From NCBI GenBank assembly GCA_009664345.1, contig CP043547.1, positions 5,980,709 to 6,044,708 on the forward strand: 64,000 nt of DNA. The letters are read 5' to 3'. The notes under the pieces are model-generated. The model had not been told where the DNA came from and made no database searches. It was given only the letters and a program-made list of their open reading frames with translations. The stretch's first letter is position 1. Each line of letters opens with the position of its first letter. Positions 6,810 through 64,000 of the stretch are shown here, one piece after another. The position numbers were made by a program, and so were the translations under genes. The DNA is from Planctomycetales bacterium 10988 (GTDB lineage Bacteria > Planctomycetota > Planctomycetia > Pirellulales > Pb10988).

Positions 6810-6830
6810 ACAATGCTGTCGACCAAACAC

Positions 6831-6845
6831 AAAAAACACTTTTTG
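6831..6845. repeat. Variant A5-N2-ACTTTTTG motif
   Basis: AAAAAACACTTTTTG, in the gap between the secreted-protein gene and holA. It is a variant of the recurrent near-palindrome described at 20598. Confidence 0.5.
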
Positions 6846-6945
6846 ACTTTGATGCTTTCTGAAAAGACCCCGAGCGAACCTTCCCCCTGCCGCAACGATC
6901 CGTCGATGATGGTTGCCACTCTCCTATTGTTTGCCGAATGCTCCC

Positions 6946-18230: not shown

Positions 18231-18235
18231 ATTTC

Positions 18236-18250
18236 AAAAAACACTTTTTA
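18236..18250. repeat. Variant A5-N2-ACTTTTT motif
   Basis: AAAAAACACTTTTTA, just past the terminator and 22 bases beyond the rtcA stop. It is part of the 18.2-24.3 kb cluster. Confidence 0.5.
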
Positions 18251-18260
18251 ATATTTTGTC

Positions 18261-18275
18261 AAAAACTACTTTTTA
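18261..18275. repeat. Variant A5-N2-ACTTTTT motif
   Basis: AAAAACTACTTTTTA, 25 bases after the previous copy; it overlaps the rtcA stop codon. Confidence 0.5.
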
Positions 18276-19301
18276 GGAAATCTCATTCGCTTCGATGGTG
18301 ACCAAGGTTCCTTTTTTTCCTTTCTTCTTGAAGCCGATCTTTACCGGCAGGAATTTTTGGATCACCTTGGCATTCGTTTTCGTGTGCTGCGTGAGGTCAT
18401 GGGTGAGAAAGCTCCCTTTCCCAGCCAAGGCCATCGGCAGGAGCAACTGATCGGCCAAATGAATCCCGACAGGGACTTTGGCCCGTTGATACTGTTGAAT
18501 GGCATCCGCGACCGCATCGGCGACCCGCTCCGAGGAAACCCCTTTTTCGCCGAAGCCTGTAATCACCTCTTGATGCGAATCCACCGTCAAGGTCGCCACC
18601 AAAGCATTCCCAGGCCCGCGACTAGGAAGCTCTTCGATCGCAAGTTCTTCCGCTGACCAGTTGAGTCGGTCTTGTAATTGCTGAAGCTCTCGCTCTCCGA
18701 TGTGATGAGAAAGGTTCGCCAAGTACGCCACCGCGCGACGTTCGGCGATCGGCCCTCGTTCCAAAAACTCAACCGGATTGAGCCGCTCCACTCCTTGCAG
18801 TTCCAGTTCCCATTCGCCACCACCAGCAGGATAAAACCCAGCGGATTTCATTTCCAGTCGGCTGCGAATTCCCATTTTCTCTAAGACCGGAAGATAAGTT
18901 CGTTCCAGAAAATCAAGCGGCGGGGCCTGCGTGTTGTGCGTTCCCCCAGTGAAACTCAACCGGCTGACTTCGCCCGTCAACGCCAGCGGCAAAGCAACCG
19001 TTTGAAATACCAGCGTCGAACTTCCCGCTGTCTCCAACGGAAAGGTGTATTCTCCCGCTTTGCAAGACTTCGGCGCGAAGGTCAAGCTTTGGGAGTGAAG
19101 AGCATCGCCACTCACCTCTGCTTCCGAGATCGCCGCAGCCGCGCGGACCGCAGCCAAGTGCTGAGCCTTCAAACCCGGTGGTCTCCGTTTCGCTCTTAAA
19201 TTGTCAATGCGAATCGGTTGCTTGGTCAGGATCGACAAGCTCAGCGACGAACGGAGGATTTGCCCCCCTCCTTCTCCTTGCGAACCATCAATTTCAATCA
19301 T
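18273..19301 (-). CDS. rtcA: RNA 3'-terminal phosphate cyclase
   Basis: RtcA converts RNA 3'-phosphate ends to 2',3'-cyclic phosphates using ATP through a covalent enzyme-AMP. The 342-residue protein shows the family signature at the start (EIDGSQGEGGGQILRSSL), then RAKRRPPGLKAQHLAA, ETAGSSTLVFQT and a GFYPAGGGEWEL segment. Near the end, LTQHTKTN has His306, matching the nucleophile His of the E. coli enzyme at nearly the same position. Length agrees with the family. No rtcB ligase or RtcR regulator is beside it, unlike the enterobacterial operon. It is divergent from a potassium channel gene. Confidence 0.95.
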   Translation of the reverse strand: MIEIDGSQGEGGGQILRSSLSLSILTKQPIRIDNLRAKRRPPGLKAQHLAAVRAAAAISEAEVSGDALHSQSLTFAPKSCKAGEYTFPLETAGSSTLVFQTVALPLALTGEVSRLSFTGGTHNTQAPPLDFLERTYLPVLEKMGIRSRLEMKSAGFYPAGGGEWELELQGVERLNPVEFLERGPIAERRAVAYLANLSHHIGERELQQLQDRLNWSAEELAIEELPSRGPGNALVATLTVDSHQEVITGFGEKGVSSERVADAVADAIQQYQRAKVPVGIHLADQLLLPMALAGKGSFLTHDLTQHTKTNAKVIQKFLPVKIGFKKKGKKGTLVTIEANEIS

Positions 19302-19388
19302 TTCAATCTTTCTTATCAGATGTTTGTTTTTAGATCATCGTAACAAGACAATGTTTCTCACCAAAAAGTTCTGGAAAAAAACGCAGGG

Positions 19389-19416
19389 TTCGCATACAAG
19401 GTGACTTCCCTATAAT
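19389..19416 (+). promoter_or_regulatory. Candidate promoter for potassium channel gene
   Basis: A consensus TATAAT at 19411-19416 has a weak TTCGCA 16 bases upstream. The channel start codon is 60 bases past the -10 box. Confidence 0.4.
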
Positions 19417-19476
19417 GAACTACCTCGGAGGAACTAATTTTTTCGCGACTCCCCCCGATAACGCAAGGAAGCAATC

Positions 19477-20334
19477 ATGGCTTCAGACAACCAAGAACCT
19501 CAGGAATCGCCAGATCTATTAAAGCAAGTTGTCGACTTCTTTGATCGATTGGCAATTCCGTTAGTATGGTACAGTGTTTTGATGCTGGCGATCGAATGCC
19601 ATCTCTATCCTGGCCAGACGAGTTATGACAGTCATCCGTTTTTTCTTTGGTCGGAAAGGGTGGTTGCGTCCCTGTTTACTCTCGAATATCTTTTTCGATG
19701 CCTACGAAATTCAGGCAAAGGCTTTTATCCTTTCACCGTTTTTGGAATGATTGATCTGGTGTCGATCTTACCCTTTTGGCTGGGTTTTATTCCGGCGGTT
19801 CGTGCAGAGCTCGATCTCGTACGAACGCTGCGCGTGTTGCGAATGCTCAAGTTTTTTCGCTATAGCCGTGGCCTGCAAGTGATGACCCTCGGGTTTTATC
19901 GAGCGTTTTTCCACCTGAAGCCGCTTCTGTTGGCGACTTCGATGATTATCTTCTTTACGATGTTTGCACTTTATGAAGTCGAAGGGCCGCATCAAGAAGA
20001 GTTTCGAAGTCTGTTTTTGATCTTTTGGTTTTTGGAAGTGACAGGTACTACCGTGGGCTATGGGGACTTTGCGCCTCATACTTACTTTGGAAAAGCAATC
20101 GTAATGTTCTATATGGTAGCTGGTCTGGCGATTTTTATGGCTTGCTTCAGTGCGATCACGTCTTCCTTTGAACAAGTATTCGAAGACGCCAACGATCCCG
20201 AATTCAATCCACTTGATGAATTTGCGAAGGTAAGTCGAAAACAATCGCGGCTTGAAGAACTCTTTCGCGATACGGGAACTACCGATGATGAAGATGCCGC
20301 TGCCGAGGAAGAACATGAAGGCATTACCTTTTAA
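19477..20334 (+). CDS. Voltage-gated potassium channel
   Basis: The 285-residue membrane protein has six hydrophobic segments and a pore loop. S1 is at about 28-48 and S2 near 60-78. An S4-like helix with regularly spaced arginines is at about 108-130 (DLVRTLRVLRMLKFFRYSRG). The selectivity filter TGTTVGYGD is near 190-200, followed by the last helix (AIVMFYMVAGLAIFMACFSAI). The TVGYGD filter means K+ selectivity. The cytoplasmic tail is about 60 residues, acidic and without a recognisable regulatory domain. AAGGAAG precedes the ATG by 6 nt. It is divergent from rtcA. Confidence 0.93.
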   Translation: MASDNQEPQESPDLLKQVVDFFDRLAIPLVWYSVLMLAIECHLYPGQTSYDSHPFFLWSERVVASLFTLEYLFRCLRNSGKGFYPFTVFGMIDLVSILPFWLGFIPAVRAELDLVRTLRVLRMLKFFRYSRGLQVMTLGFYRAFFHLKPLLLATSMIIFFTMFALYEVEGPHQEEFRSLFLIFWFLEVTGTTVGYGDFAPHTYFGKAIVMFYMVAGLAIFMACFSAITSSFEQVFEDANDPEFNPLDEFAKVSRKQSRLEELFRDTGTTDDEDAAAEEEHEGITF

Positions 20335-20416
20335 GCAAGCTGGAAACTTTTTCTCAGACGACTCTGTCCTAGTTGCGGTCAGCAGCCTGAGCCTCCCTCG
20401 TAAGAGATGTAGTTGG

Positions 20417-22786
20417 ATGATACTAAAAAACACTTTTTGGTTCTTGATTTGGCTTGGGCTTTGTTGCTACTCCGCGTCAGGTTTCGCAGAACGACAAGAG
20501 ATTGGGAAATTCAACGCATTCTTTCTCGACGGAGAACGCATCAATGCCGCAGAGATCGAAGGCTGGAGCCAAGGAGAAGGCGAACCCTCAATCAATCAAA
20601 AAGCACTTTTTGATTCTGAAAACCCGGCCCGTTGGGTTTTGAATCGGCTCTTAGAGACAGGACATTCGCCGGAGGTTTTGGTTGAATTTTGGACCGGGGA
20701 TTGTCTGCCTGGCGAAGTCACGGGGTATCGCTATGGCCTCAATCATCCGATCGAGCAGCGATTCCCTCATGTCATCGTCGATTGTCCGCTGCCAGTTGGA
20801 TCGCCCGATCAGCCGTGGATGAGTGGACGAATTCGCGTGCGAACCGAAGCCATTCGCCGGGTCGTTTGGCAGCCGCGGGGCGGAAGTGGTTTTCAACCAG
20901 GAACGCTGTTTCTCCGCGATGGCTCGCAGATTGTATATCGAGCGTTACGCTGGACGGAGCGAGGGATCGAACTCTTACGCGAGGAAGGAACCGTCAGTGT
21001 TTCCTTTTCCCAGATTGCGGAATTGCACTTCTTGCGACCCCCTGCTTGGGAGCCGATGTGGGAGCAGTTGGCCTCCCTTTCACCCGATGGCAAGACGCGA
21101 CTCATACAACTGGAAACGGCCAGCGGACTCTTGGCGACGACCTCCCGAGATCGTCTTTCGCTTGAAGTAGGCACGACCATGAAAGCGGTTCGCTTCCATC
21201 GCATCCAACCAGCTTGGAGCCTCGACCCGCTCTGGGTTCCGCTATCCACCATCTCCTGCTGGCGTTTCTTTGCTCCGCATGAAGTGCTTCTCTCGAATCT
21301 TGAACCGCAGTTGATTGAGCAGACTCCGATCCTGGCCGGTTACTGGCAAGTGCAGAAAAATCGAAGCGTGCTCCAAATCTCGTTCTCTGAATTCTCACCA
21401 CAAGCTACTTGGGGGCTTGGGGTGCTGGGAAATGCACGGCTCACGTTTTCCTTGCCGCCGTTTTCGAAAAATTTCACTTGTCGAGGAAGACTCGATCCGT
21501 CTGTGGGAGCGGGAGGGTGTGTACAGTGCCGCATCCTGTGGAGACGCGAGCAAGAGGAAAAAGTACTTTTTGAAAGTCCGGTGCTTGTCGGATCGCAAGA
21601 GTCCTTCGAAACTCCGCAACTTTCTCTATCGAAGCCCGAGAAAAAAGTTCAACAGACCCAGCTTCTCTTGGAGGTGAATTCCACCCCGGAAGAACGTCCC
21701 CAAGGTGCGGACCCCTTTGATATTCGCGATGCCTTGAATTGGATCGAGCCTTTGCTGGTCCTTGACCCCAAGGCATTGCAAGCGATTCTCAAAGAACGGT
21801 ATTCCGAGCAAATCCCGGCCTGGAACCAATGGCAATCCCCGCAGTTTCTGAGTGGAAAGTTGTCGCTCAAAGCCGTTTGGGAAAAGGGTGGTCTTGAGGG
21901 GCCTAGCTATGATTGGCAAGTCCAGCCGACCGAGGAATCCTTGCAACTGGTCCGCGAGTTGATCCCGACCGAGGATCAAAAGTGGCTTGTCATCAACACG
22001 ACTCGACCGGAAGCATCGCCTCCGTGTCAGCTTCGCGTCGAGGCAAATGGGAAACCTTTGGTAGAAAAGTGGGAGATTCCAACTCCTGAAGCGACTTCTA
22101 GCGTTGACCCGTTGACGGTGCCATTGCAAGACTATCTTGATCAAAAAGTCACGCTACGACTGATCCAATCGAGCGAGGCATCGGACGCCGCCGCACAGTG
22201 GAAAGCGATCTCTTTTCTCGATCAACCTCTTGGATTGCGTCGTTTATTCGAAGATGATCCGATCTGGCTCAATCAGTTCGAAGGGGAGGAAAACCAACTC
22301 TCATTCATTGCAAAAAGCGCTTTTAGCGGTCAAGGATCGCTCCAACTCCAAGCGGGCTCCCTCGGGAACACGGCGATCCAAGACTGGAATTATTCGATCA
22401 ATAACCGACCGGACTTGGGCGAATTTCGCTATCTACGGTTTGCCTGGAAAACGACCGAAGGGGCGAACATCGAACTTCAGCTTGCGGCCTCGGGGAAGTG
22501 GGATCGGCAGCAAGGTTCGCAACGCCAAGAAGGAAATGAACGCGTTTTGCAATACCGAGCTGGGCCGGATCGTTCAGAAAATCGTTATGTGAAGCAGATC
22601 GGTTTCAGCAGTCCCACCGAATGGACAATCATCACAAGGGACCTAGCCAGCGACTTCGGAAGTTTTAAACTGACAGGGTTGCAGTTTCATCTCAGCGAAG
22701 GCAGCACCGGGTGGATCGATCATATCTATCTTGCTCGGAAAATGAGCGACTTCGAATATCTCGATCCAGAGCTGGTGAATCCTTAG
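20417..22786 (+). CDS. Large exported protein of unknown function
   Basis: The 789-residue product has a signal peptide (MILKNTFWFLIWLGLCCYSASGFA). Residues about 30-330 hold repeated short beta segments built around DG and W residues (LFLRDGSQIVYRALRW, VSVSFSQIAELHFLRP). They suggest an SH3- or Sm-like barrel repeated three or four times. The C-terminal 170 residues look like a carbohydrate-binding-type beta sandwich (GSLQLQAGS, FRYLRFAWKT, WTIITRDLASDFG, TGLQFHLSEG, WIDHIYLAR). I name no family. The ATG is the only standard start between the preceding stop and the signal peptide. It contains four copies of the AAAAAgyrCTTTT-type motif in its coding sequence and converges on the next gene with 4 bases between. 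Confidence 0.75.
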   Translation: MILKNTFWFLIWLGLCCYSASGFAERQEIGKFNAFFLDGERINAAEIEGWSQGEGEPSINQKALFDSENPARWVLNRLLETGHSPEVLVEFWTGDCLPGEVTGYRYGLNHPIEQRFPHVIVDCPLPVGSPDQPWMSGRIRVRTEAIRRVVWQPRGGSGFQPGTLFLRDGSQIVYRALRWTERGIELLREEGTVSVSFSQIAELHFLRPPAWEPMWEQLASLSPDGKTRLIQLETASGLLATTSRDRLSLEVGTTMKAVRFHRIQPAWSLDPLWVPLSTISCWRFFAPHEVLLSNLEPQLIEQTPILAGYWQVQKNRSVLQISFSEFSPQATWGLGVLGNARLTFSLPPFSKNFTCRGRLDPSVGAGGCVQCRILWRREQEEKVLFESPVLVGSQESFETPQLSLSKPEKKVQQTQLLLEVNSTPEERPQGADPFDIRDALNWIEPLLVLDPKALQAILKERYSEQIPAWNQWQSPQFLSGKLSLKAVWEKGGLEGPSYDWQVQPTEESLQLVRELIPTEDQKWLVINTTRPEASPPCQLRVEANGKPLVEKWEIPTPEATSSVDPLTVPLQDYLDQKVTLRLIQSSEASDAAAQWKAISFLDQPLGLRRLFEDDPIWLNQFEGEENQLSFIAKSAFSGQGSLQLQAGSLGNTAIQDWNYSINNRPDLGEFRYLRFAWKTTEGANIELQLAASGKWDRQQGSQRQEGNERVLQYRAGPDRSENRYVKQIGFSSPTEWTIITRDLASDFGSFKLTGLQFHLSEGSTGWIDHIYLARKMSDFEYLDPELVNP
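20425..20439. repeat. Variant A5-N2-ACTTTTTG motif
   Basis: AAAAAACACTTTTTG, identical to the copy at 6831. It falls in codons 4-7 of the large exported protein, reading KNTF. Confidence 0.5.
20598..20612. repeat. Recurrent near-palindrome AAAAAGCACTTTTTG
   Basis: A core copy of the motif AAAAG-[CT][AG]-CTTTT. Here it lies inside a gene, read as K-A-L-F. The other core copies are at 21558, 22312, 23986, 24229, 52141 and 63929; looser ones are at 6831, 18236, 18261 and 20425. Role unknown. Confidence 0.65.
21558..21572. repeat. Recurrent palindrome AAAAAGTACTTTTTG
   Basis: AAAAAGTACTTTTT is a perfect 14 bp palindrome, inside the large exported protein gene and read as K-V-L-F. Confidence 0.65.
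22312..22324. repeat. Recurrent palindrome AAAAAGCGCTTTT
   Basis: AAAAGCGCTTTT is a perfect 12 bp palindrome in the same gene. It is read in another frame relative to the motif (K-S-A-F), so protein sequence does not explain its recurrence. Confidence 0.6.
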
Positions 22787-22790
22787 AACT

Positions 22791-23945
22791 TTATTTTTCA
22801 GGAACTTGCCAACAACAAATCTGCTGATCGTTGGAGCCTGAGAGCAACCACTTGCCATCCGGCGAAAAGGACAGAGCATTTACATAGTCAGTATGATGCT
22901 TCAACTCGTTGATCGGTTGTTTCGTGGTCGTATCGAAAACACGCACGATTCCGTCTCCGCCTCCTACGGCTAACCAAGGCTGTTTCGGAGAAAAGGCCAA
23001 CGCGGTGATGCTTTGGTCATTGCCTACCCATTGAGCTTCCGGCGTCATCGTCGAAAGGTTCCACAAACGAAGAAGGATCTCGCCACCGCCGGAAGCCAAC
23101 TGTTTATCATCGGAGGAAAACGCCACCGGGCCAGCCCATTTTTGTAATCCGCGAAAGACATGCCTGACTTTTTCCGACTGCCAATCCCACACTGCAACCT
23201 TCTGATCCCCGGAGCCGGAGGCCAAATAATTTCCCGATGGCGAAAAAGAGACGCCATGGATCGGGCCTTCATGACCACGCAAAGGAATCGAGCGGGGCGG
23301 CTTGGTCTGAACTTCCAGGTCCCAAACTTCGACCAGCGAATTCAACGCACCGGTTGCCAACCAGCGACCTTGAGGATGGATGGAAAGAGCCGAAATTTGG
23401 CCGTTGTAACCTTCCAGCCACGGCAAAACCATCTTCGGTTTCCAATGAATAATGTGGCTGCGACTCTTGGCCAAATCATTCTGGATGAGATAGGCCTCCT
23501 CAGAATTGGGCGAAATGGCAAGCGAACTGAAATCCCCTTCGAGTGGGCTGGGCGTACTTTCTGGATCTTCTTCGTTGCGGTTCCAGAGATAAATTTCCGC
23601 ACTCCCACCACAAGACAAAAAACGTTCGCTATCGGGGAAAAACTCCAGATCACTGACGAAGGTCGGTTGTTTCCAAGTGGAAACCAACTTCCAAGAGGGA
23701 GGAAGCGGCGGCAGAGCCGGCTTCTTCAGTTCCGGAAGCGGTGGCGGACTGACAGGGGGAGGAGGAATGACGGACTCTTCGTCTTCAGGAGTTTTCGCAA
23801 TCGGATCGTTGGCTTCCTCGGGGACCGATGTCGGTTCCACTTCGGGAATTTCCACCAACGGCTGTTCTTTTTCCGAGGTGCAACCTATCAGGAAGCCTGA
23901 AAGGAGGAGGCCGAGCATCCACCTTTGTTTTGAAAACTGAATCAT
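22791..23945 (-). CDS. WD40-repeat lipoprotein
   Basis: The 384-residue product has a lipoprotein signal (WMLGLLLSGFLIGC) and then a Pro/Glu-rich linker at about 25-85 (PPPPVSPPPLPE). About seven WD40 repeats follow, with clear blade ends such as LASGSGDQKVAVWDW, LAVGGGDGIVRVFD and LLSGSNDQQICCW. It should form a beta-propeller at the outer face of a membrane and bind other proteins. The ATG at 23945 with AAAGGA upstream is preferred to a GTG 21 bases earlier. A copy of the recurrent motif (23986-24000) lies 40 bases before it. Another lipoprotein gene lies just upstream on the same strand. Confidence 0.85.
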   Translation of the reverse strand: MIQFSKQRWMLGLLLSGFLIGCTSEKEQPLVEIPEVEPTSVPEEANDPIAKTPEDEESVIPPPPVSPPPLPELKKPALPPLPPSWKLVSTWKQPTFVSDLEFFPDSERFLSCGGSAEIYLWNRNEEDPESTPSPLEGDFSSLAISPNSEEAYLIQNDLAKSRSHIIHWKPKMVLPWLEGYNGQISALSIHPQGRWLATGALNSLVEVWDLEVQTKPPRSIPLRGHEGPIHGVSFSPSGNYLASGSGDQKVAVWDWQSEKVRHVFRGLQKWAGPVAFSSDDKQLASGGGEILLRLWNLSTMTPEAQWVGNDQSITALAFSPKQPWLAVGGGDGIVRVFDTTTKQPINELKHHTDYVNALSFSPDGKWLLSGSNDQQICCWQVPEK

Positions 23946-23985
23946 GCGACGAGAAATCCTTTTCACGAGTTACCGCTGAGTTTCG

Positions 23986-24000
23986 AAAAGCACTTTTTGC
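23986..24000. repeat. Recurrent near-palindrome AAAAGCACTTTTTGC
   Basis: Lies in the 73-base gap between the two lipoprotein genes, 40 bases before the WD40 gene start. This is the copy best placed to act as an operator. Confidence 0.65.
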
Positions 24001-24018
24001 TTTTGTGTCACTGTCAGT

Positions 24019-24939
24019 TTAGTTCGCTTGCCGAACTCGTTGAATTTGTTCAAGAAGGCCGTTTTTGATTCCCATATCTTGAATCGTGTCGGTGATTTCC
24101 TCCGCTTGTTCGAAGGCATCTTCCCAACGAGAATCCCCAAGCTTTTTCAATCGCTCTGCAAGGCTCAGATAGGCATACGCTTGGCTTTCGGGCTCTTCGA
24201 TGTTTTCCGCGGTTGCGAATCCTTGGTCAAAAGTACTTTTTGCATCGTCTTCAAGACCTAGGACTTGCTGAATCGCGGCGACTTCGGCGAGTGCTTCCGT
24301 CTTTTGGCGAGGATCGTTGAGCGACAAGGCTCCATTGTTTGCTTCGCCAATCAAGTCCGGCGTGCGTTGCGACAAGGGATCAGCTTCCGCATATCCTTTG
24401 GCAACCGCAAGTTGAGCCAATACCTGAGAGTAAGGATCGGCAATTTGCGGGAAAAGCCCTTCCGCTTCCTCCAAGGTTTCGAGGGCCTCGGTGACTTTCC
24501 CTGCCGCCGTTTGTAATTCGGCGATTTTGGAAAGGACGACCACCCGACGTTCAAGATCGTCGATCTCGACTACCGCCAGTTCGGCGGATTCAACCGACTT
24601 CACACTATCGGAACGCTGATCGCCTTCTCGCTGAATGCGGGCGGTTTCAACCAAAAGGTCGGCCTTTTCGGCAGGATTTTCAATTCTTAAGCAAGCATCG
24701 TAAGCTTTTCGCAAAGTTGATCGCACGTCGAATAAAGCTCCGGCGGCAATTTGATCTTCCGCAATCCGGTGCAACGCAATCGCTTGCGAGGTCGGATTGC
24801 CGAGTTTTTCAGCATCCGCAACACGCACCGCAAACGACGCCGAAGGACCACTCGACGAAGAGCCGCCCCCTGAACATCCCCAAGTTCCCACCAGCGTGAG
24901 CAAACAAATTCCGAGCCAAACATTCCGCCATACTTTCAT
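24019..24939 (-). CDS. Helical-repeat (TPR-like) lipoprotein
   Basis: The 306-residue product has a lipoprotein signal ending LVGTWGC, followed by a Gly/Ser-rich stretch. The rest is repeated helix pairs of about 35-40 residues. Each carries a variant of xAIALHRIAEDQIAAG, ALETLEEAEGLFPQI or AYAYLSLAERLKKLG, a TPR-like solenoid with acidic residues. AAGGGA precedes the ATG by 6 nt. It lies 53 bases downstream of the aminotransferase gene and upstream of the WD40 lipoprotein, so all three may be co-transcribed. A scaffold role is inferred only from fold. Confidence 0.8.
   Translation of the reverse strand: MKVWRNVWLGICLLTLVGTWGCSGGGSSSSGPSASFAVRVADAEKLGNPTSQAIALHRIAEDQIAAGALFDVRSTLRKAYDACLRIENPAEKADLLVETARIQREGDQRSDSVKSVESAELAVVEIDDLERRVVVLSKIAELQTAAGKVTEALETLEEAEGLFPQIADPYSQVLAQLAVAKGYAEADPLSQRTPDLIGEANNGALSLNDPRQKTEALAEVAAIQQVLGLEDDAKSTFDQGFATAENIEEPESQAYAYLSLAERLKKLGDSRWEDAFEQAEEITDTIQDMGIKNGLLEQIQRVRQAN
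24229..24242. repeat. Recurrent palindrome AAAAGTACTTTTTG
   Basis: Inside the TPR-like lipoprotein gene, on its template strand, read on the minus strand as K-S-T-F. Confidence 0.65.
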
Positions 24940-24992: not shown

Positions 24993-26228
24993 TTACTCAA
25001 AGACAAATTGAACTTGTTTCAACCGATCCTCAGCCGCCGCCATCAGATCGTCTTCCGCCTGTTCGTCTTGGGCCACGTAAGTTGCCGAGAATCGGAGGAA
25101 CGAACCGGCATCATCCCAAGGCACCGTGCAGATCGATTGCTCGGTAATCAGGTATTGGCTCGCTTCTTCCGCATTTTGGAAGGTGGTCCCGTCGGCCAAT
25201 CCCGTTGGCGATTTTGTATAGAGGAAATAAGTCCCGCCAGGCATCTCGCATTGGAAACCGCAGCGTTTCAGCATGGCGACCAACTTTTCCAGGCGTCGTT
25301 TGTATTTATCGCGAATTTGATTGGGAATCGAGTCCTCTTCCAAGGCGGCACAAGCTGCCTTTTGAATGGCGATGAACTGCCCCGAATCGCTGTTATCCTT
25401 GACATCAGAAAAGGCTTGAACAATGGTAGGATTCCCGCAAACCCAACCGATTCGCCAACCGATCATGTCAAAACCTTTGGAGAGCGAATGCACTTCGACC
25501 CCGACATCTTTCGCACCTGGGATCGACAAGAAACTGAGCGGTTCCGCCCCGAAACTCAGGCAAAGATGAGCCGCATCTTGCACTACTACGATATTGTTCG
25601 TTTTGGCGAAGTCGACCACTTTACGGTAGAACTCCTCCGTGGCCAGCTTCCCGGTGGGACTATTGGGATAGTTGAGGACCAAGATTTTGGCTTTATCCAA
25701 GACGTCTGACGGAATCGAATCGAGATCGGGAAGGAAATCGTTTTCCGCCAAAAGTGGGAGTTTATGAACTTCGCCACCGTAGTACTTCGTATGCGTGCCG
25801 GCGACCGGATAGCCAGGAACGGTCATCAGGGTGATATCACCGGGGTTGATGAAGACCGCCGGGAGCATCGCCAGGGCCGGTTTGGAACCGATGCAGTGAT
25901 TGACTTCCGTCGCCAGATCGAGCTCGACGCCATAGCGACGGAGCATGAACGCGGCCGCGGCATCCTTGAAGGCTTGCACGCCGTTGTCGGCGTAACCGCG
26001 ATTTTCCGGCTGATTGATCTCTCGCTCCATGACTTGACGGACCCGCTCGTCGGCCATCTCATCATTTTCGCCAATGCCAAAATCAAGCAACGCCCGCTCA
26101 GGATGTTCGGCGAGGGCCTTTCGCTTGGCCCGCTTGATTTTCTCGAATTTATAGATTTCGGTCCCTTTTCCGTATTGGGCTCCCCCAATGCGTTCGGCAA
26201 AAAGCGTTTGGAAATATGGATCACTCAT
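24993..26228 (-). CDS. dapL: LL-diaminopimelate aminotransferase-type PLP enzyme
   Basis: DapL makes LL-diaminopimelate from tetrahydrodipicolinate and glutamate in one step of lysine and peptidoglycan-precursor synthesis. The 411-residue fold-type I aminotransferase has the segment RGYADNGVQAFKDAAA, NYPNSPTG at 186-193, and the cofactor Asp218 (VVVQDAAH). The Schiff-base Lys251 lies in SLSKGFDMIGWRIGW, with a late FLRFSATYVA segment for the substrate carboxylate arginine. Planctomycete proteins of this kind are, as I recall, labelled DapL. Specificity cannot be proved from motifs, and a broader aspartate-family aminotransferase is the alternative. It begins 168 bases after the radical SAM gene. 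Confidence 0.8.
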   Translation of the reverse strand: MSDPYFQTLFAERIGGAQYGKGTEIYKFEKIKRAKRKALAEHPERALLDFGIGENDEMADERVRQVMEREINQPENRGYADNGVQAFKDAAAAFMLRRYGVELDLATEVNHCIGSKPALAMLPAVFINPGDITLMTVPGYPVAGTHTKYYGGEVHKLPLLAENDFLPDLDSIPSDVLDKAKILVLNYPNSPTGKLATEEFYRKVVDFAKTNNIVVVQDAAHLCLSFGAEPLSFLSIPGAKDVGVEVHSLSKGFDMIGWRIGWVCGNPTIVQAFSDVKDNSDSGQFIAIQKAACAALEEDSIPNQIRDKYKRRLEKLVAMLKRCGFQCEMPGGTYFLYTKSPTGLADGTTFQNAEEASQYLITEQSICTVPWDDAGSFLRFSATYVAQDEQAEDDLMAAAEDRLKQVQFVFE

Positions 26229-52107: not shown

Positions 52108-52140
52108 TAGAGAGTCAAAGTCCTCAGGAGGGTTAAATTC

Positions 52141-52153
52141 AAAAAGTGCTTTT
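52141..52153. repeat. Recurrent near-palindrome AAAAAGTGCTTTT
   Basis: In the 50-base gap between the two LRR genes. Read on the minus strand with its flanks it is GAAAAGCACTTTTTG, the same as the copy before the WD40 lipoprotein at 23986. Confidence 0.65.
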
Positions 52154-52157
52154 CGAT

Positions 52158-53360
52158 TTATCCGTAGGAATTGACAACGACTTCATCCCCGAAGCGGTCT
52201 TTGAGGATTTGCGTTCCTTCCGAGGAAAGTTCGTTGAAATCCACTCGCAGGGCAACCAGATTGTCAAAGTGTTTACAATCGGCCAGTTGTTTGGCCCCTT
52301 CGTCAGTAATTCCATTGCCAATTAAGTCCAGCACGCGGAGATTCTCGAAGTTCTTCGATTTGACCAAACGCAGAACCCCTTCATCCAGCAAGCGATTCCG
52401 AGAAAGTTGCAACACTTTGAGTTGCGGGGCAAACGGGGCTTGGGCCAACATTTCGATATCCGCCGGCCAGAGCCCGCACTCTTGCAGTCCCAGAGAAACG
52501 AGATGGTTCAGCGACTTGGCCCCGGCAAGTGATTCGATTCCCTTGCGTCCCAAGCTATTGTTTCGAGAAAGCTTCAGTTGTTGCAAACTGGTCCAATGCG
52601 GCGATTCCGCCAGAGCGGCCAACCCTTCGGCCCCGATATGGTTATGCTCCAAGAGAAGCCGCTCTAAATTACTGGACTGCGAAGATTGTGAAAGCCATTG
52701 CAGGCCTTCGCTGCCGATGCGGTTCTCGGCGAGGTTGAGAACTTTCAAACGGCTCAGCAAAGACGAACACGCCAAAGAGGACATCCCTTGGGCTTCGATA
52801 CGATTCCAAATCAAATAGAGTTCTTGCACCTGATCGAGACAAGACGACATGGCAATCGTCGGAATATCCGTATCGCGAAGGAACGTGACATCCGTCCGCA
52901 TACTTAAATCGAGGGTGACAAGCTTCCGCAAATGCTCGGAGTTCATCAACTCGAAGAGGGATTCGGACACCATCAAAAAGCTCACGCGGCGAATGGTGGG
53001 GACTTCCAAGAAAAGCTGATCCGCGTGTTGTAAAAACATCGCAGCACTGACGCGGCACTCTTCCGCAAACCCACGGCGAAAGCGATAAACAAAGGCATTC
53101 GCCAAGGTAGGATCGAGCGGTTCAGGAAGCCACTCTTTATAGTACTGTGCCCATAGTTCCTCTTCCCGGAGTTTTAAACGGCTCCAGGCCGGGAGAAAGA
53201 CCCCTTCAGGCATCTGTTCCAAGCGCGCTAACTCCACCTGGATGCGAATCCATTCGCCTCGCGGGTCTTCCTGATCCTCAAGCCAGTCGGCATAGACCAA
53301 GCGGGGGTTATCTTCGTCAGGTGCTGCTAGAATTGCATCCATCAAGGCTTGAGCAGCCAT
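52158..53360 (-). CDS. TIGR02996-type repeat-companion protein with LRRs (paralogue)
   Basis: The 400-residue protein has the same plan as its downstream neighbour. The N-terminal domain has MDAILAAPDEDNPRLVYADWLEDQEDPRGEWIRIQ. Leucine-rich repeats follow from about residue 120: LVTLDLSMRT, LKVLNLAENRIGSEGL, LERLLLEHNHIGAEGL, LQQLKLSRNNSLGRKGI, LKVLQLSRNRLLDEGV, LRVLDLIGNGITDEGAKQL. The two proteins are clearly related but diverged, suggesting an old tandem duplication. It ends DRFGDEVVVNSYG. AAGGACC lies about 7 nt before the ATG. Role unknown. Confidence 0.85.
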   Translation of the reverse strand: MAAQALMDAILAAPDEDNPRLVYADWLEDQEDPRGEWIRIQVELARLEQMPEGVFLPAWSRLKLREEELWAQYYKEWLPEPLDPTLANAFVYRFRRGFAEECRVSAAMFLQHADQLFLEVPTIRRVSFLMVSESLFELMNSEHLRKLVTLDLSMRTDVTFLRDTDIPTIAMSSCLDQVQELYLIWNRIEAQGMSSLACSSLLSRLKVLNLAENRIGSEGLQWLSQSSQSSNLERLLLEHNHIGAEGLAALAESPHWTSLQQLKLSRNNSLGRKGIESLAGAKSLNHLVSLGLQECGLWPADIEMLAQAPFAPQLKVLQLSRNRLLDEGVLRLVKSKNFENLRVLDLIGNGITDEGAKQLADCKHFDNLVALRVDFNELSSEGTQILKDRFGDEVVVNSYG

Positions 53361-59877: not shown

Positions 59878-62800
59878 ATGTCCTCTCCTGATGAAAGTAC
59901 GAAACTCCGTTTTCAAGCTGAAGAAGGTTGGCTGGGAGAGATACTCGCCAACCAATATCAACGTTGGCATGCCCGGGTTGGAATTCCCGCCGAAAAAATT
60001 CTGGCAACGGAACCTCGATTGCTCGATCACCGCGAAGCGGCCCTCGATGTGATTTATGGCGAGTATTGGATTCGCAAGGAACTCGGGGAAACTCTTGACG
60101 TTGCCCGGTTTGTCGATCGATTCCCCGACTTTCGCCAAGAGCTGGAACAACAGTTTCGGCTTCACTTTCATCTTCACGATCAGCTCGATTTTCAGTCGAC
60201 GGATACCCTTCCGATGGAGAAACTCCCGGACTATCTCCGAGGAACTTCCCATCCTGCGGAGGAAACGCCGCCTCTTCACTCGTTTGGAATCTTTGAAGCC
60301 GCAAGTCCAAAACGGGTTGAAACGCGTACGGAATTGCCTTGTCCTTTTGGTCCTCTTTGGGATGGAGCACCGCAATTCGTCTTCGAAAAACGACTTGGAC
60401 AAGGGGCGCTGGGCTGCGTCTTTTCGGCGTGGGATCGGCGTTGGCAGCGGACCGTTGCTATCAAAGTCCTGCGGAGAATTGACCCTCAGGGAATTGAACT
60501 GCTCAAGCGGGAGTTCCGTTCGTTAGTGGCACTCCCACCGCATGAAAATGTCGTCCGGTTCTATGAACTCTTCGAATTTCAGGGAAATTGGTTCTTTACC
60601 ATGGAATTGGTCGAGGGAACGGATTTTCTTGAGTTCGTTCGGCCAAAGCATAGCGAGGTCCGCTGGTCACGCCTATTACAAGCAACAAGGCAACTTGTTT
60701 CCGGCATCCAACAACTTCATCAAGCCGAGTTGCTTCACCGTGATATCAAACCGGCCAATGTCATGGTTTGCCGGCGAACGGCTCAAGTGAAGCTTCTCGA
60801 CTTCGGCTTGATTGGCAAAAAGTCCCTTCAAGAAAACCCTTATTTTTGCCGGGAATACTTTGTGGGCACCGCGGCATTTGTCGCTCCCGAGCAACTCCGT
60901 TTTGAGGGGGCTTCCCCGGCGAGTGATTGGTTTAGTCTGGGCGTGATGCTCTTTCAAGCCATGGTGGGGCAGCTTCCGCATATCGGCAGAAGAGAGCGGC
61001 TGGGCCTTCTTCAACAGGAGTCCTCCGCAGCGTTGCTTTCCGAGATCCCCCCGCTTTGGAAATCTCTCTGCTTGCAATTGATCGACCCCAACCGGAAGAA
61101 CCGTCCTACGGCAGAAGCGATTCAACAAGTCTTGCAAACCATTTCTGAAGATCAAAAGAGAGAGCGGAACGAATCTACCCCGCTCCCGATGACCGATTGG
61201 ACGCCCAGGCAAATTTCTTTGATTGACGAAGCGGATTTCTCCGAAGCGGCCGAACCATCTACTTTGCCGTTTGTGGGACGAGCGAAGTTAAGAACTGAGA
61301 TTCGAGAGCTGGTCAACAAGATTCAACAAGGAGAGTCCGCCCTCTTTTGGTTGGAAGGAGAATCCGGGCTGGGCAAGTCTTCCTTGTTGAGAGTTCTTCG
61401 AGAAGACCTCTTGCAAGGCGAGGACCTTTGGGTGTTCCGCGGGGCCTGCAATCCGTTGGAATCACTCTCTTTTAAAGCCTTGGAAGGCCCGATCGAGGAC
61501 TTGACCGAGCAGCTTAGCCGGAAGTCGCAAGCCGAGCAGTCCGCCATCTTTCCAGAATCACCGACGCTCTTGGCACAGATGTTTCCTGCTTTGCATCGAC
61601 TGAATGTCTTTCAGGATGCGGTCCCTCTTGCGGAGTCTGATCCTAGCGAAGATCGTCGCCGTTGGGCCAATCAACATCTACTCAATCTGTTGCGTCAATT
61701 GGTCAAGCAAAAGCCGGTCGTTTTGCTGTTGGATGATTTTCAGTGGGTCGATGCGGATAGCATTCGACTTCTTCAAGCTATTTTTGATTCCTCGGATACA
61801 TTGCCCCTGCTGCTGATTCTCAGCTATCGTCCAGAAGGTGGGGCCGTTAACTCTCTGCAAAACTATCTCAAAAAAACAAACCTCTCTACTTGGCAGGAAT
61901 GGTCCGCCATTCATCGTGTCTTGACTCCTCTCACGTTGGCTGAAGCTGAAGAGCTAGCAGGTTCCTTGCTTGAAAGAAAAGGAATCTCGCCGGATCTGCT
62001 TGCCAAGACAATTGCTCAGGCTTCAGGGGGCCATCCGTATTTCATTCAAGAGTTGGCAAGGTCCGTTAATCCAGCTAAGGACCAACAAGAGGATAAATTT
62101 TCAGCGACGGTCAGTCCTTCAGCATCTCGTTCCGTGGAGCCGACTACACGCACCTCAGGGGAACTTCGATCGTTGGATGCGGTACTTTGGCAAAAGATTT
62201 GTCAACTCGATCTCCCAACGCGGCGAGTTTTGGAATTTGTTACCGTTTCTGGCAGAGGGATGGAATCCGAAACCATTCGCCAAGCGATCCGTCATCAGCG
62301 GCGGTGGACTTCTCAACTCCAAACATTGCATGATGCCCAACTGATCCGGTTTCGCTTTCCCTCGGGTGGAGGCTCCCCTTCTTCCTCTTGGATTGAGCCT
62401 TATCACGACCGGGTTCGAGAAACCGTCCTGGAGCAACTTCCTCCGAGCCGTCGCCGTCATGCCCATTGGAGAATCGCCAAGGTTCTGGAAAAGGGAGGCC
62501 GCTCCACGCCGAGTACCTTGCTCGAACATTTCCGCCACGCTGGCGAGACCAAAAAGGCAGCCCATCAAGCCTTGCTGGCAGCGGAAAGTGCCAAAGACCA
62601 ACTGGCCTATGAACATGCCGGCCATCTCTATGCCTTGGCCTCGGAGTTCGGTGACTTTCCGCGACAACGGCGAATCGAGCTTCAAAAGCTCAGTGCCGCC
62701 ACGTATTCAATCGCGGAACAGGGGGTTCTCGCCGCGAAGCAAATGTTGAAAGCGGCGGAAGAAAGCGACGGGCTCGATCGAAAAAGCTTGGAACTCAAGG

Positions 62801-64000
62801 CTTCCGTACAATATGCCGCTGTTGGACAAACTCAGAAGTCGATCGCCATTCTTCAACGTCACTTGCACGCCTTGGGGTTGAAACTTCCTTCAACAACGCA
62901 GGAGATCAAGCGTCACTTCTTTGTGGTTCAGTTAAAATTTCTCTTGACCTCTATTCCAAGTTATCGCTCGTTACGACAGCTGGATGACACGAAATCAGAC
63001 CCGGAACTTGTGTATCTGGCGGACCTTTTCTGGTCGATTCATATCAGTTCGATACAGACACAGTTTTCGGTGGGGGTGCTTTATATCTTTGAATTTCTTC
63101 TGGCCGCCCTCAAGGCAAAGGAACGATTTCGGCTTTCCATTGCGATTGCCATTCTCGCGGTCGCGATGATCTGTCGAGGAAAAGACAAAAAGGCGAGAAG
63201 ATATTTACTCACGGCTGTCCACTTGCGTCATCACCACACACGTTGGTATTTCCGAGCATTGTTATGGCATTACCTCGGTTTCTATCATTTGTTGCTAGGT
63301 AGATATCGACGTTCGGCCAAACTCTTTCTTTATTCTCAATATTGTGCCAAACGGGTCTTCTTCGCCAGGAATTTTTCTGAAAGCTCCAGCTTCTTCAATG
63401 GTTCCTATCCCCGTTTGATGCTAGGCCGCTTTCGCGAGATTCTCCCAGCCCGTGAACTCTTTCAAGACGCCCAGCGGAGGGAAGATCGATTAGGCATGAT
63501 CTACTTTTCTTCCGGTCCTTGCGTTCAAGCCTGGCTCGCTCCCCATCGGTCCGAAGAGATTCGAACAATCCTTGAGAATCTATGGAATTCCATCGCTCCA
63601 AAAAATGTTGAATTTTTAGCAGCCGCCATCCTGTGGGGACACGTCCAGACCGATCTTTACTGTCAACAGCCAGGCCTTGCCCGTCAACGGTTACAAAACA
63701 ATCGCTGGATTGTGAAACATTATCTAAGCCATTCCCCGGCTTTCGGAGCGGTGTTTCGAGAGATGGATGCCCAGATTGCCTTGGCCGAGGCTAGGCAAAA
63801 GCCCCATCCTCAAGCATTCCGCACGGTTCTCCGAAAAGCCAAGCTTCTCAAACGCATTCGCTATTCTCCCGTGATCGCACAAGCAAACCTCATCGAGTCG
63901 CAAGTAGCGATGCTTCAATCACAAAAGCAAAAAGCACTTTTGATGATCCAGCAGGCCACGCAATCCGCCCGGCAAACGGAAGCGGAATATCTTCTCGATT
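59878..64000 (+). CDS. Ser/Thr protein kinase fused to AAA-type ATPase (3' end outside window)
   Basis: The frame is open from the ATG at 59878 to the window edge, at least 1374 residues. Residues 1-160 are an N-terminal region typical of planctomycete kinases. The kinase domain follows: LGQGALGCVF near 172, Lys in VAIKVL near 195, LHRDIKPANVM near 286 and LLDFGLIG near 307. A predicted P-loop ATPase of the STAND/PknK kind begins near 465, with Walker A GESGLGKSSL at about 495 and Walker B VVLLLDDFQWVD at about 613. The rest is helical and TPR-like (ALLAAESAKDQLAYEHAGHLYALA). It should be cytoplasmic. The ECF sigma gene just upstream is a likely partner; this is inferred from context. Confidence 0.9.
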   Translation, partial: MSSPDESTKLRFQAEEGWLGEILANQYQRWHARVGIPAEKILATEPRLLDHREAALDVIYGEYWIRKELGETLDVARFVDRFPDFRQELEQQFRLHFHLHDQLDFQSTDTLPMEKLPDYLRGTSHPAEETPPLHSFGIFEAASPKRVETRTELPCPFGPLWDGAPQFVFEKRLGQGALGCVFSAWDRRWQRTVAIKVLRRIDPQGIELLKREFRSLVALPPHENVVRFYELFEFQGNWFFTMELVEGTDFLEFVRPKHSEVRWSRLLQATRQLVSGIQQLHQAELLHRDIKPANVMVCRRTAQVKLLDFGLIGKKSLQENPYFCREYFVGTAAFVAPEQLRFEGASPASDWFSLGVMLFQAMVGQLPHIGRRERLGLLQQESSAALLSEIPPLWKSLCLQLIDPNRKNRPTAEAIQQVLQTISEDQKRERNESTPLPMTDWTPRQISLIDEADFSEAAEPSTLPFVGRAKLRTEIRELVNKIQQGESALFWLEGESGLGKSSLLRVLREDLLQGEDLWVFRGACNPLESLSFKALEGPIEDLTEQLSRKSQAEQSAIFPESPTLLAQMFPALHRLNVFQDAVPLAESDPSEDRRRWANQHLLNLLRQLVKQKPVVLLLDDFQWVDADSIRLLQAIFDSSDTLPLLLILSYRPEGGAVNSLQNYLKKTNLSTWQEWSAIHRVLTPLTLAEAEELAGSLLERKGISPDLLAKTIAQASGGHPYFIQELARSVNPAKDQQEDKFSATVSPSASRSVEPTTRTSGELRSLDAVLWQKICQLDLPTRRVLEFVTVSGRGMESETIRQAIRHQRRWTSQLQTLHDAQLIRFRFPSGGGSPSSSWIEPYHDRVRETVLEQLPPSRRRHAHWRIAKVLEKGGRSTPSTLLEHFRHAGETKKAAHQALLAAESAKDQLAYEHAGHLYALASEFGDFPRQRRIELQKLSAATYSIAEQGVLAAKQMLKAAEESDGLDRKSLELKASVQYAAVGQTQKSIAILQRHLHALGLKLPSTTQEIKRHFFVVQLKFLLTSIPSYRSLRQLDDTKSDPELVYLADLFWSIHISSIQTQFSVGVLYIFEFLLAALKAKERFRLSIAIAILAVAMICRGKDKKARRYLLTAVHLRHHHTRWYFRALLWHYLGFYHLLLGRYRRSAKLFLYSQYCAKRVFFARNFSESSSFFNGSYPRLMLGRFREILPARELFQDAQRREDRLGMIYFSSGPCVQAWLAPHRSEEIRTILENLWNSIAPKNVEFLAAAILWGHVQTDLYCQQPGLARQRLQNNRWIVKHYLSHSPAFGAVFREMDAQIALAEARQKPHPQAFRTVLRKAKLLKRIRYSPVIAQANLIESQVAMLQSQKQKALLMIQQATQSARQTEAEYLLD
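63929..63942. repeat. Recurrent near-palindrome AAAAAGCACTTTTG
   Basis: Inside the kinase-ATPase gene near the window end, read as K-A-L-L. A core copy of the motif described at 20598. Confidence 0.6.

Follow-up and report, generated by a model that had tools for sequence, protein, structure and literature searches.

What kind of element is a 12-base palindrome that recurs, in coding and non-coding DNA alike, within a single stretch of a bacterial chromosome? The window (the whole 64,000-nucleotide stretch analysed, G000:C1:5980709-6044708 of a single-contig 6.65-Mb genome of the Planctomycetota) contains seven exact copies of the strict motif AAAAGYRCTTTT, starting at 20599, 21559, 22313, 23986, 24229, 52142 and 63930; all seven had been reported in an earlier note made from the sequence alone, albeit with coordinates one base off for five of them. 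The four looser copies of that note (6831, 18236, 18261 and 20425) were all found as well, and the looser pattern also matches two of the strict copies (20598 and 21558). Eight of these eleven copies lie inside 18236-24242, as the note had stated. By chance, the strict motif is expected 0.04-0.06 times per window (Markov orders 1-5, fitted to the window), and 100 dinucleotide shuffles gave a mean of 0.04 and a maximum of 1. A profile derived from 2.04 Mb of the genome matches exactly the same eleven window sites. The palindrome is very likely a protein-binding DNA site. It probably serves as operator for a single abundant homodimeric protein of this lineage that binds DNA sequence-specifically, and would be maintained by selection at about 1,100 places.

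The sites of the window are listed here with the gene beside the densest group; genes were called by a home-made hexamer gene finder, so that their start codons are unreliable.

6826..6849, palindromic site with the 24-bp core AAAAAACACTTTTT, intergenic according to the home-made gene calls
18231..18254, palindromic site, first of a pair spaced by 25 bp, downstream of the stop codon of the RNA 3'-phosphate cyclase gene
18256..18279, palindromic site, the 25-bp partner of the preceding one, overlapping the end of the cyclase gene at its edge
18273-19301, minus strand, RNA 3'-phosphate cyclase gene (Pfam RTC match)
20420..20443, palindromic site in the gap ahead of gene 20444-22786 (start codon uncertain)
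20593..20616, strict palindromic site within gene 20444-22786, encoding QKALF
21553..21576, strict palindromic site within gene 20444-22786, encoding EKVLF
22307..22330, strict palindromic site within gene 20444-22786, encoding KSAF, ungapped in the sole paralogue aligned
23980..24003, strict palindromic site between the minus-strand genes 22791-23918 and 24019-24828, just past the stop codon of the latter (start codons of both uncertain; an open frame at 22791-23966 is listed for the former)
24223..24246, strict palindromic site within the minus-strand gene 24019-24828/24939, encoding KSTF
52136..52159, strict palindromic site, intergenic according to the gene calls
63924..63947, strict palindromic site within the called gene 59878-63999, encoding QKALL

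Abundance and distribution of the palindrome

The 6.65-Mb genome contains 396 copies of the strict motif and 5 of a control, the same pattern read backwards. The sample for profile analysis consisted of 100 evenly spaced 20-kb stretches, one of which was replaced by the window, giving 2.044 Mb (31% of the genome); 103 strict sites fall within 2.0 Mb of the sampled stretches. The profile, which was iterated, symmetrised and trained on the same sample in which sites were counted, finds 350 sites of at least 15 bits in 2.04 Mb, versus 9 for a third-order Markov model, 11 for a fifth-order model and 15 in the reversed sequence, and its scores are bimodal, with a sparse zone at 10-15 bits. Extrapolation from these 350 sites in 31% of the genome, after subtraction of background, gives a total of about 1,100 full sites. 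The earlier note had suggested a genome-wide iterated palindrome and a comparison with third-order Markov expectation; both counts bear the suggestion out, the palindrome being far above chance throughout the genome, and iterated in the sense of the highly iterated palindromes (HIPs) of cyanobacteria.

No comparable abundance was found in 523 other genomes of the phylum (145 of the same order and 392 drawn from the phylum, 14 of which were already in the order set), where the strict motif occurs 0-38 times and tracks the control count. Within the order the counts are 0-14, the genome with 14 having 20 copies of the control, and the highest counts among the genomes drawn from the phylum are 38 (control 22), 26 (control 39), 19 (control 14) and 15 (control 5). 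Relatives of the aminotransferase encoded at 24993-26228 are 70-78% identical in 80 listed loci, with titles nearly all of Planctomycetota, Pirellulales or similar; the profile matches 3 times in 80 loci of relatives (1.23 Mb) and not at all in another 38 loci (140 kb) from order-mates and phage relatives. Among the genomes surveyed, the family is represented by the present genome only.

Location was analysed with the 355 sites that score at least 14.5 bits. They form clumps throughout the genome (per 20 kb, mean 3.5 and variance 11.4), to a degree that exceeds all 2000 randomisations for coding and non-coding sites alike (17 multi-copy repeat sites were removed in this randomisation only, leaving 338), and because the clumping is genome-wide the local cluster of the window is not special. 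Site density does not change systematically away from the contig start (rho -0.03, p 0.77), which is not shown to be the origin, and on this ground a marker of the replication origin or terminus was dropped as a candidate.

Anatomy of the site and its 25-bp register

The full site in the 2.04-Mb sample is a palindrome of 24-26 bp, AAWTNYAAAAAG-YR-CTTTTTRNAWTT, with the symmetrised profile A A W T N Y A AAAA G Y R C TTTT T R N A W T T. The A/T-tract positions are conserved at 93-100% and the inner G/C at 68%, and conservation ends about 14 bp to either side of the centre. Spacers of any length other than two bases give 4-21 matches, and among 120 instances of AAAAG-NN-CTTTT the centre is YR in 103 (CA 34, TA 33, TG 21, CG 15), the remaining centres accounting for 17 together. 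Such a YR dinucleotide at the dyad usually indicates a bend that is read indirectly. The scarcity of CG centres may reflect that of GCGC itself, which is depleted about 4-fold in the same sample (1,576 versus 6,796 expected, ratio 0.23, the remaining 15 palindromic tetramers having ratios of 0.81-0.95), a depletion that suggests avoidance of a restriction target.

Complementary arm pairs at positions 2, 7, 8 and 9 from the centre number 163, 171, 155 and 78, versus 183, 183, 168 and 94 expected; complementarity is never above independence and is below it at several positions, the pattern of independent half-sites each of which is allowed to be weak. Along the direction of transcription, the 145 sites between tandem genes have an A run of 4.41 and a T run of 4.48 bases. 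Because the arms lack covariation and the site is symmetric about transcription, the palindrome is, on the evidence of its sequence, one that acts as DNA and not as an RNA hairpin.

Neighbouring sites are found 25 bp apart in 18 pairs, at 24 bp in 1 and at 26 bp in 4, and runs of three sites were seen by eye in five stretches or loci. The linkers of the 25-bp pairs share the consensus RNATTSAATNY, centred 12.5 bp away, half of which is carried by isolated sites, and otherwise vary from pair to pair. This arrangement suggests a dimer that spans about 25 bp and packs side by side with the next. A search of viral contigs for tandem pairs gave a single match, in a phage contig of 41% GC (L211), which was rejected as a coincidence: its two matches are an inverted repeat, and nothing else in its 4.4 kb reaches 14.5 bits.

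Position relative to genes and the resident prophage

The 355 sites comprise 145 between co-directional genes, 51 between convergent genes, 8 between divergent genes, 138 in called genes and 13 at the edges of stretches. Past a stop codon, density is 2.5 per kb at 0-10 nt, 3.7 at 10-20 nt, 2.1 at 20-30 nt and 1.9 at 30-40 nt, then falls to 0.7 at 40-60 nt and to 0-0.6 further out; around start codons it ranges over 0.08-0.7 per kb, and within genes it is about 0.08. Among intergenic regions of at least 30 bp, a site is present in 30 of 157 convergent, 108 of 817 tandem and 8 of 210 divergent ones, and because all three classes are alike at 56-57% A+T, G+C content is not the cause of this 3'-end bias. 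To our knowledge, a preference for the first 40 nt past stop codons has not been described for any bacterial DNA-binding protein with about 1,000 high-information sites. Genes followed by a site have more G+C (median 0.540 versus 0.518, p 7e-14) and better codon scores, codon scores are poorer in genes with an internal site (p 9e-6), and the two kinds of site co-occur beyond chance (odds ratio 3.2). A label of 'self' DNA was dropped as a candidate because coding sites favour genes of low codon score and the prophage described below is rich in sites.

The coding sites use all three phases (61, 42 and 35 of 138) and the intergenic sites lie mostly past stop codons, which upholds the argument of the earlier note that protein repetition does not explain the motif; its description of the window is likewise accurate, with 5 of the 11 copies in called genes and read in differing frames as KALF, KVLF, KSAF, KSTF and KALL. 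An alignable homologue, either a paralogue or a gene in a relative's locus, was available for 43 of the 138, and in 38 of these at least one homologue aligns over the site without a gap, the other 5 being gapped in all; several alignments span poorly conserved stretches or near-identical repeat copies, and are support rather than proof. The site in FabI is translated as KSAF, against REGF in solved homologues, with no gap in the two alignments shown. By flank similarity the 355 sites form 336 groups, only three of which are multi-copy repeats (9, 5 and 6 copies). Because the coding copies are mostly ungapped and the flanks form so many independent groups, the sites appear to have been made mainly by substitution and not by insertion.

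Eight genes contain at least three internal sites, versus 0.46 expected (maximum 4 in 2000 randomisations); the annotated ones include a tetratricopeptide repeat (TPR) protein, two Ser/Thr kinases, an RNA polymerase beta'-like protein and a PD-(D/E)XK nuclease/helicase-like protein. A beta'-like protein of 953 amino acids (L181:13179-16040, minus strand) has an alignment to E. coli beta' that covers residues ~414-1293 of the latter (E 4e-63; best match 2e-74), and no NADFDGD-type catalytic motif was found in it; its gene overlaps a Ser/Thr kinase-WD40 gene by 4 bases, with three palindrome sites inside each. A canonical rpoC was not seen in the 2.04-Mb sample.

A resident prophage of about 44 kb (G000:C1, about 3,629,825-3,673,725; L245, L242 and L166), with genes for integrase, terminase, portal, head protease, major head and tape-measure proteins, RusA and primase, contains 20 sites. 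A site lies just behind 11 of its 54 called genes and behind 7 of 12 in the early region, where genes are trailed by the palindrome one after another; a 29-kb segment beside the prophage has 2 sites, and none of its 22 genes has one at the 3' end. Two distant relatives of the prophage, IMG/VR contigs recovered by the major head protein (44-47% identity), contain no sites, and a search by terminase gave no relatives. The phage either has adapted to a factor of its host or uses that factor. Genes that by eye resemble a CRISPR-Cas cluster, Cas2-like and others (L243, in the region from G000:C1:3617226, offsets about 62379-72196), adjoin the prophage, and their ends are without sites.

Putative operator function and its alternatives

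If the palindrome is an operator, each protomer would cover 12-13 bp, contacting the narrow minor groove of the A-tract and the outer WWTNY, the DNA would bend at the central YR step, and dimers would stack alongside one another at 25 bp, so placed as to organise the nucleoid or to fence neighbouring genes. A possible reason for the location past stop codons is that a bound protein would there least disturb promoters, ribosome-binding sites and codons. Given that protein binds, a chromosome-wide structural or insulating role is likely. The Noc, SlmA and MatP proteins bind as dimers to palindromic sites with 12-16-bp cores that are spread over the chromosome; they have tens of sites of other sequences, whereas the present palindrome has about 1,100. 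The earlier note had proposed a site for a nucleoid, segregation or replication protein, and the anatomy fits such a protein, but the genome has ordinary numbers of HU/IHF, LacI and ParB_N matches, and site density is without trend from the contig start.

Several observations weigh against the operator. More than a third of the sites (138 of 355) are in called genes, which a role purely at 3' ends does not explain, and the two runs of coding sites differ slightly in length (4.12 versus 3.79). Just 23 of the 43 alignable coding sites are ungapped in most homologues. The clumping is strong, and some 20-kb stretches with native codon use contain no sites at all. Since the genome is the sole one of its family, maintenance by selection is deduced from the score distribution and not from conservation of sites. 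No cognate protein was found among the five families searched, most DNA-binding families not having been searched: serine recombinase (8), HTH_7 (3), HU/IHF (2), LacI (3) and ParB_N (1) are all within the range of the order-mates searched. A list of genes behind promoter-proximal sites, read by eye for an autoregulated DNA-binding gene, gave no clear candidate; about a third of the genome was read.

Of the alternatives, the one that survives best is a stoperator or roadblock, in which a protein bound past the stop codon halts read-through or antisense RNA polymerase, in both directions since the site is palindromic. The repressors of cluster A mycobacteriophages act so at dispersed intergenic sites (PMC9283540, PMC6550527). 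The likeness lies in a single protein, putative in the present case, with numerous sites dispersed over short gaps between genes, and the resident prophage bears sites behind early genes. The sharp peak within 40 nt of stop codons fits, as does the site share, highest between convergent genes and low between divergent ones. Yet classical terminators are not replaced: a terminator-like hairpin stands at 10 of the 76 tandem gene ends that have a site and at 74 of the 741 that do not, and likewise at 11 of 44 convergent ends with a site versus 74 of 270 without. Sites are as common in tandem gaps of 30-60 bp (share 0.137, n=95), where a block would be polar, as in longer ones, and many lie within genes. 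Stoperators are 13-bp, asymmetric and oriented, some 20-30 per phage genome (PMC9283540, PMC6550527), whereas the present sites are palindromic, unoriented and number about 1,100 on a host chromosome. A dedicated stoperator is on balance unlikely. A tentative extension of the operator proposal is that the chromosome may be fenced by about 1,100 putative operators of a single lineage-specific protein, in 25-bp register behind stop codons, as a bidirectional counterpart of stoperators to which the prophage might also have adapted. Eukaryotic insulators and Reb1-type roadblock sites are a possible counterpart of such chromosome-wide sites.

An iterated palindrome made or kept by an orphan methyltransferase and biased repair is improbable. 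It would resemble HIP1 (GCGATCGC) and the alternate HIPs of cyanobacteria, which are likewise lineage-specific palindromes spread over whole chromosomes in coding and non-coding DNA, but HIPs are short, GC-rich and tied to methyltransferases (PMC4390886), whereas the present site is an A/T-tract palindrome of 24-26 bp, not an 8-mer, with graded flanks, a YR centre, a 25-bp register and intergenic copies biased to gene 3' ends. Outside the sites, AGTACT (141), AGCGCT (120), AGCACT (224) and AGTGCT (273) are near their maximum-order expectations of 188, 121, 244 and 261. The orphan methylase of the earlier note is therefore disfavoured, though no methyltransferase gene search was made: the site is too long, its A/T tracts exceed the methylatable GYRC centre in conservation, and its submotifs are not in excess elsewhere.

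A Hin/resolvase-type site for binding or crossover by a serine recombinase, with two 12-bp half-sites and a 2-bp core in 26 bp, is comparably improbable. The hix crossover site of serine invertases is also 26 bp long, with an A-tract in each half-site and a 2-bp centre; it is paired at one locus, whereas the present sites number about 1,100 in a genome where no unusual recombinase was found, and their A-tract is one base closer to the centre. PF00239 matches number 8 in this genome versus 0-12 in 57 order-mates, HTH_7 matches 3 versus 0-4 in 38 order-mates, and the best small recombinase (4150405) adjoins a stretch that lacks sites and scores poorly for codon use.

A small mobile element like the repetitive extragenic palindromes (REPs) or miniature inverted-repeat transposable elements (MITEs), inserted after stop codons, would account for the post-stop location, the REP-like clumping and the tandem copies at 25 bp, but it is very improbable, because conservation stops at about ±14 bp, most of the aligned coding copies (FabI included) do not look inserted, nearly every site has its own flanks, and the 25-bp linkers differ from pair to pair. 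Least credible is an intrinsic terminator or other RNA hairpin, which the A-tract, short centre, T-tract and proximity to gene ends might suggest, but whose arms should covary and whose T run should exceed the A run, neither of which is seen, and which is at odds with sites independent of classical terminators and often inside genes. Chance is disfavoured along with the methylase, the mobile repeat and the terminator.

Few DNA-binding proteins of bacteria have about a thousand sites of high information content (roughly 20 bits). Searches of the literature with exact 12-16-mer strings of the motif gave no paper on a bacterial repeat, and searches on planctomycetes and palindromes gave nothing relevant, both judged by titles. 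Planctomycetota divide without FtsZ and have condensed nucleoids, and the discrete consensus with its 25-bp arrays is a ready bait for the putative protein that binds it. The lack of the signal in the 145 order-mates surveyed raises the question of how one lineage gains about 1,000 binding sites.

Two further observations are minor. At offsets 93751-100000 of the region from G000:C1:3617226 (L244), genes that by eye resemble RNA-repair enzymes (kinase, Thg1-like) lie in a 14-kb stretch with 13 sites, 10 of them in genes; the cluster of the window adjoins the RNA 3'-phosphate cyclase gene. The 15-base run GAGGAAGAAGTCGCC, with its shifts, has about 40 copies in the sampled stretches, more than any 12-mer of the palindrome, and is probably a repeated protein segment.

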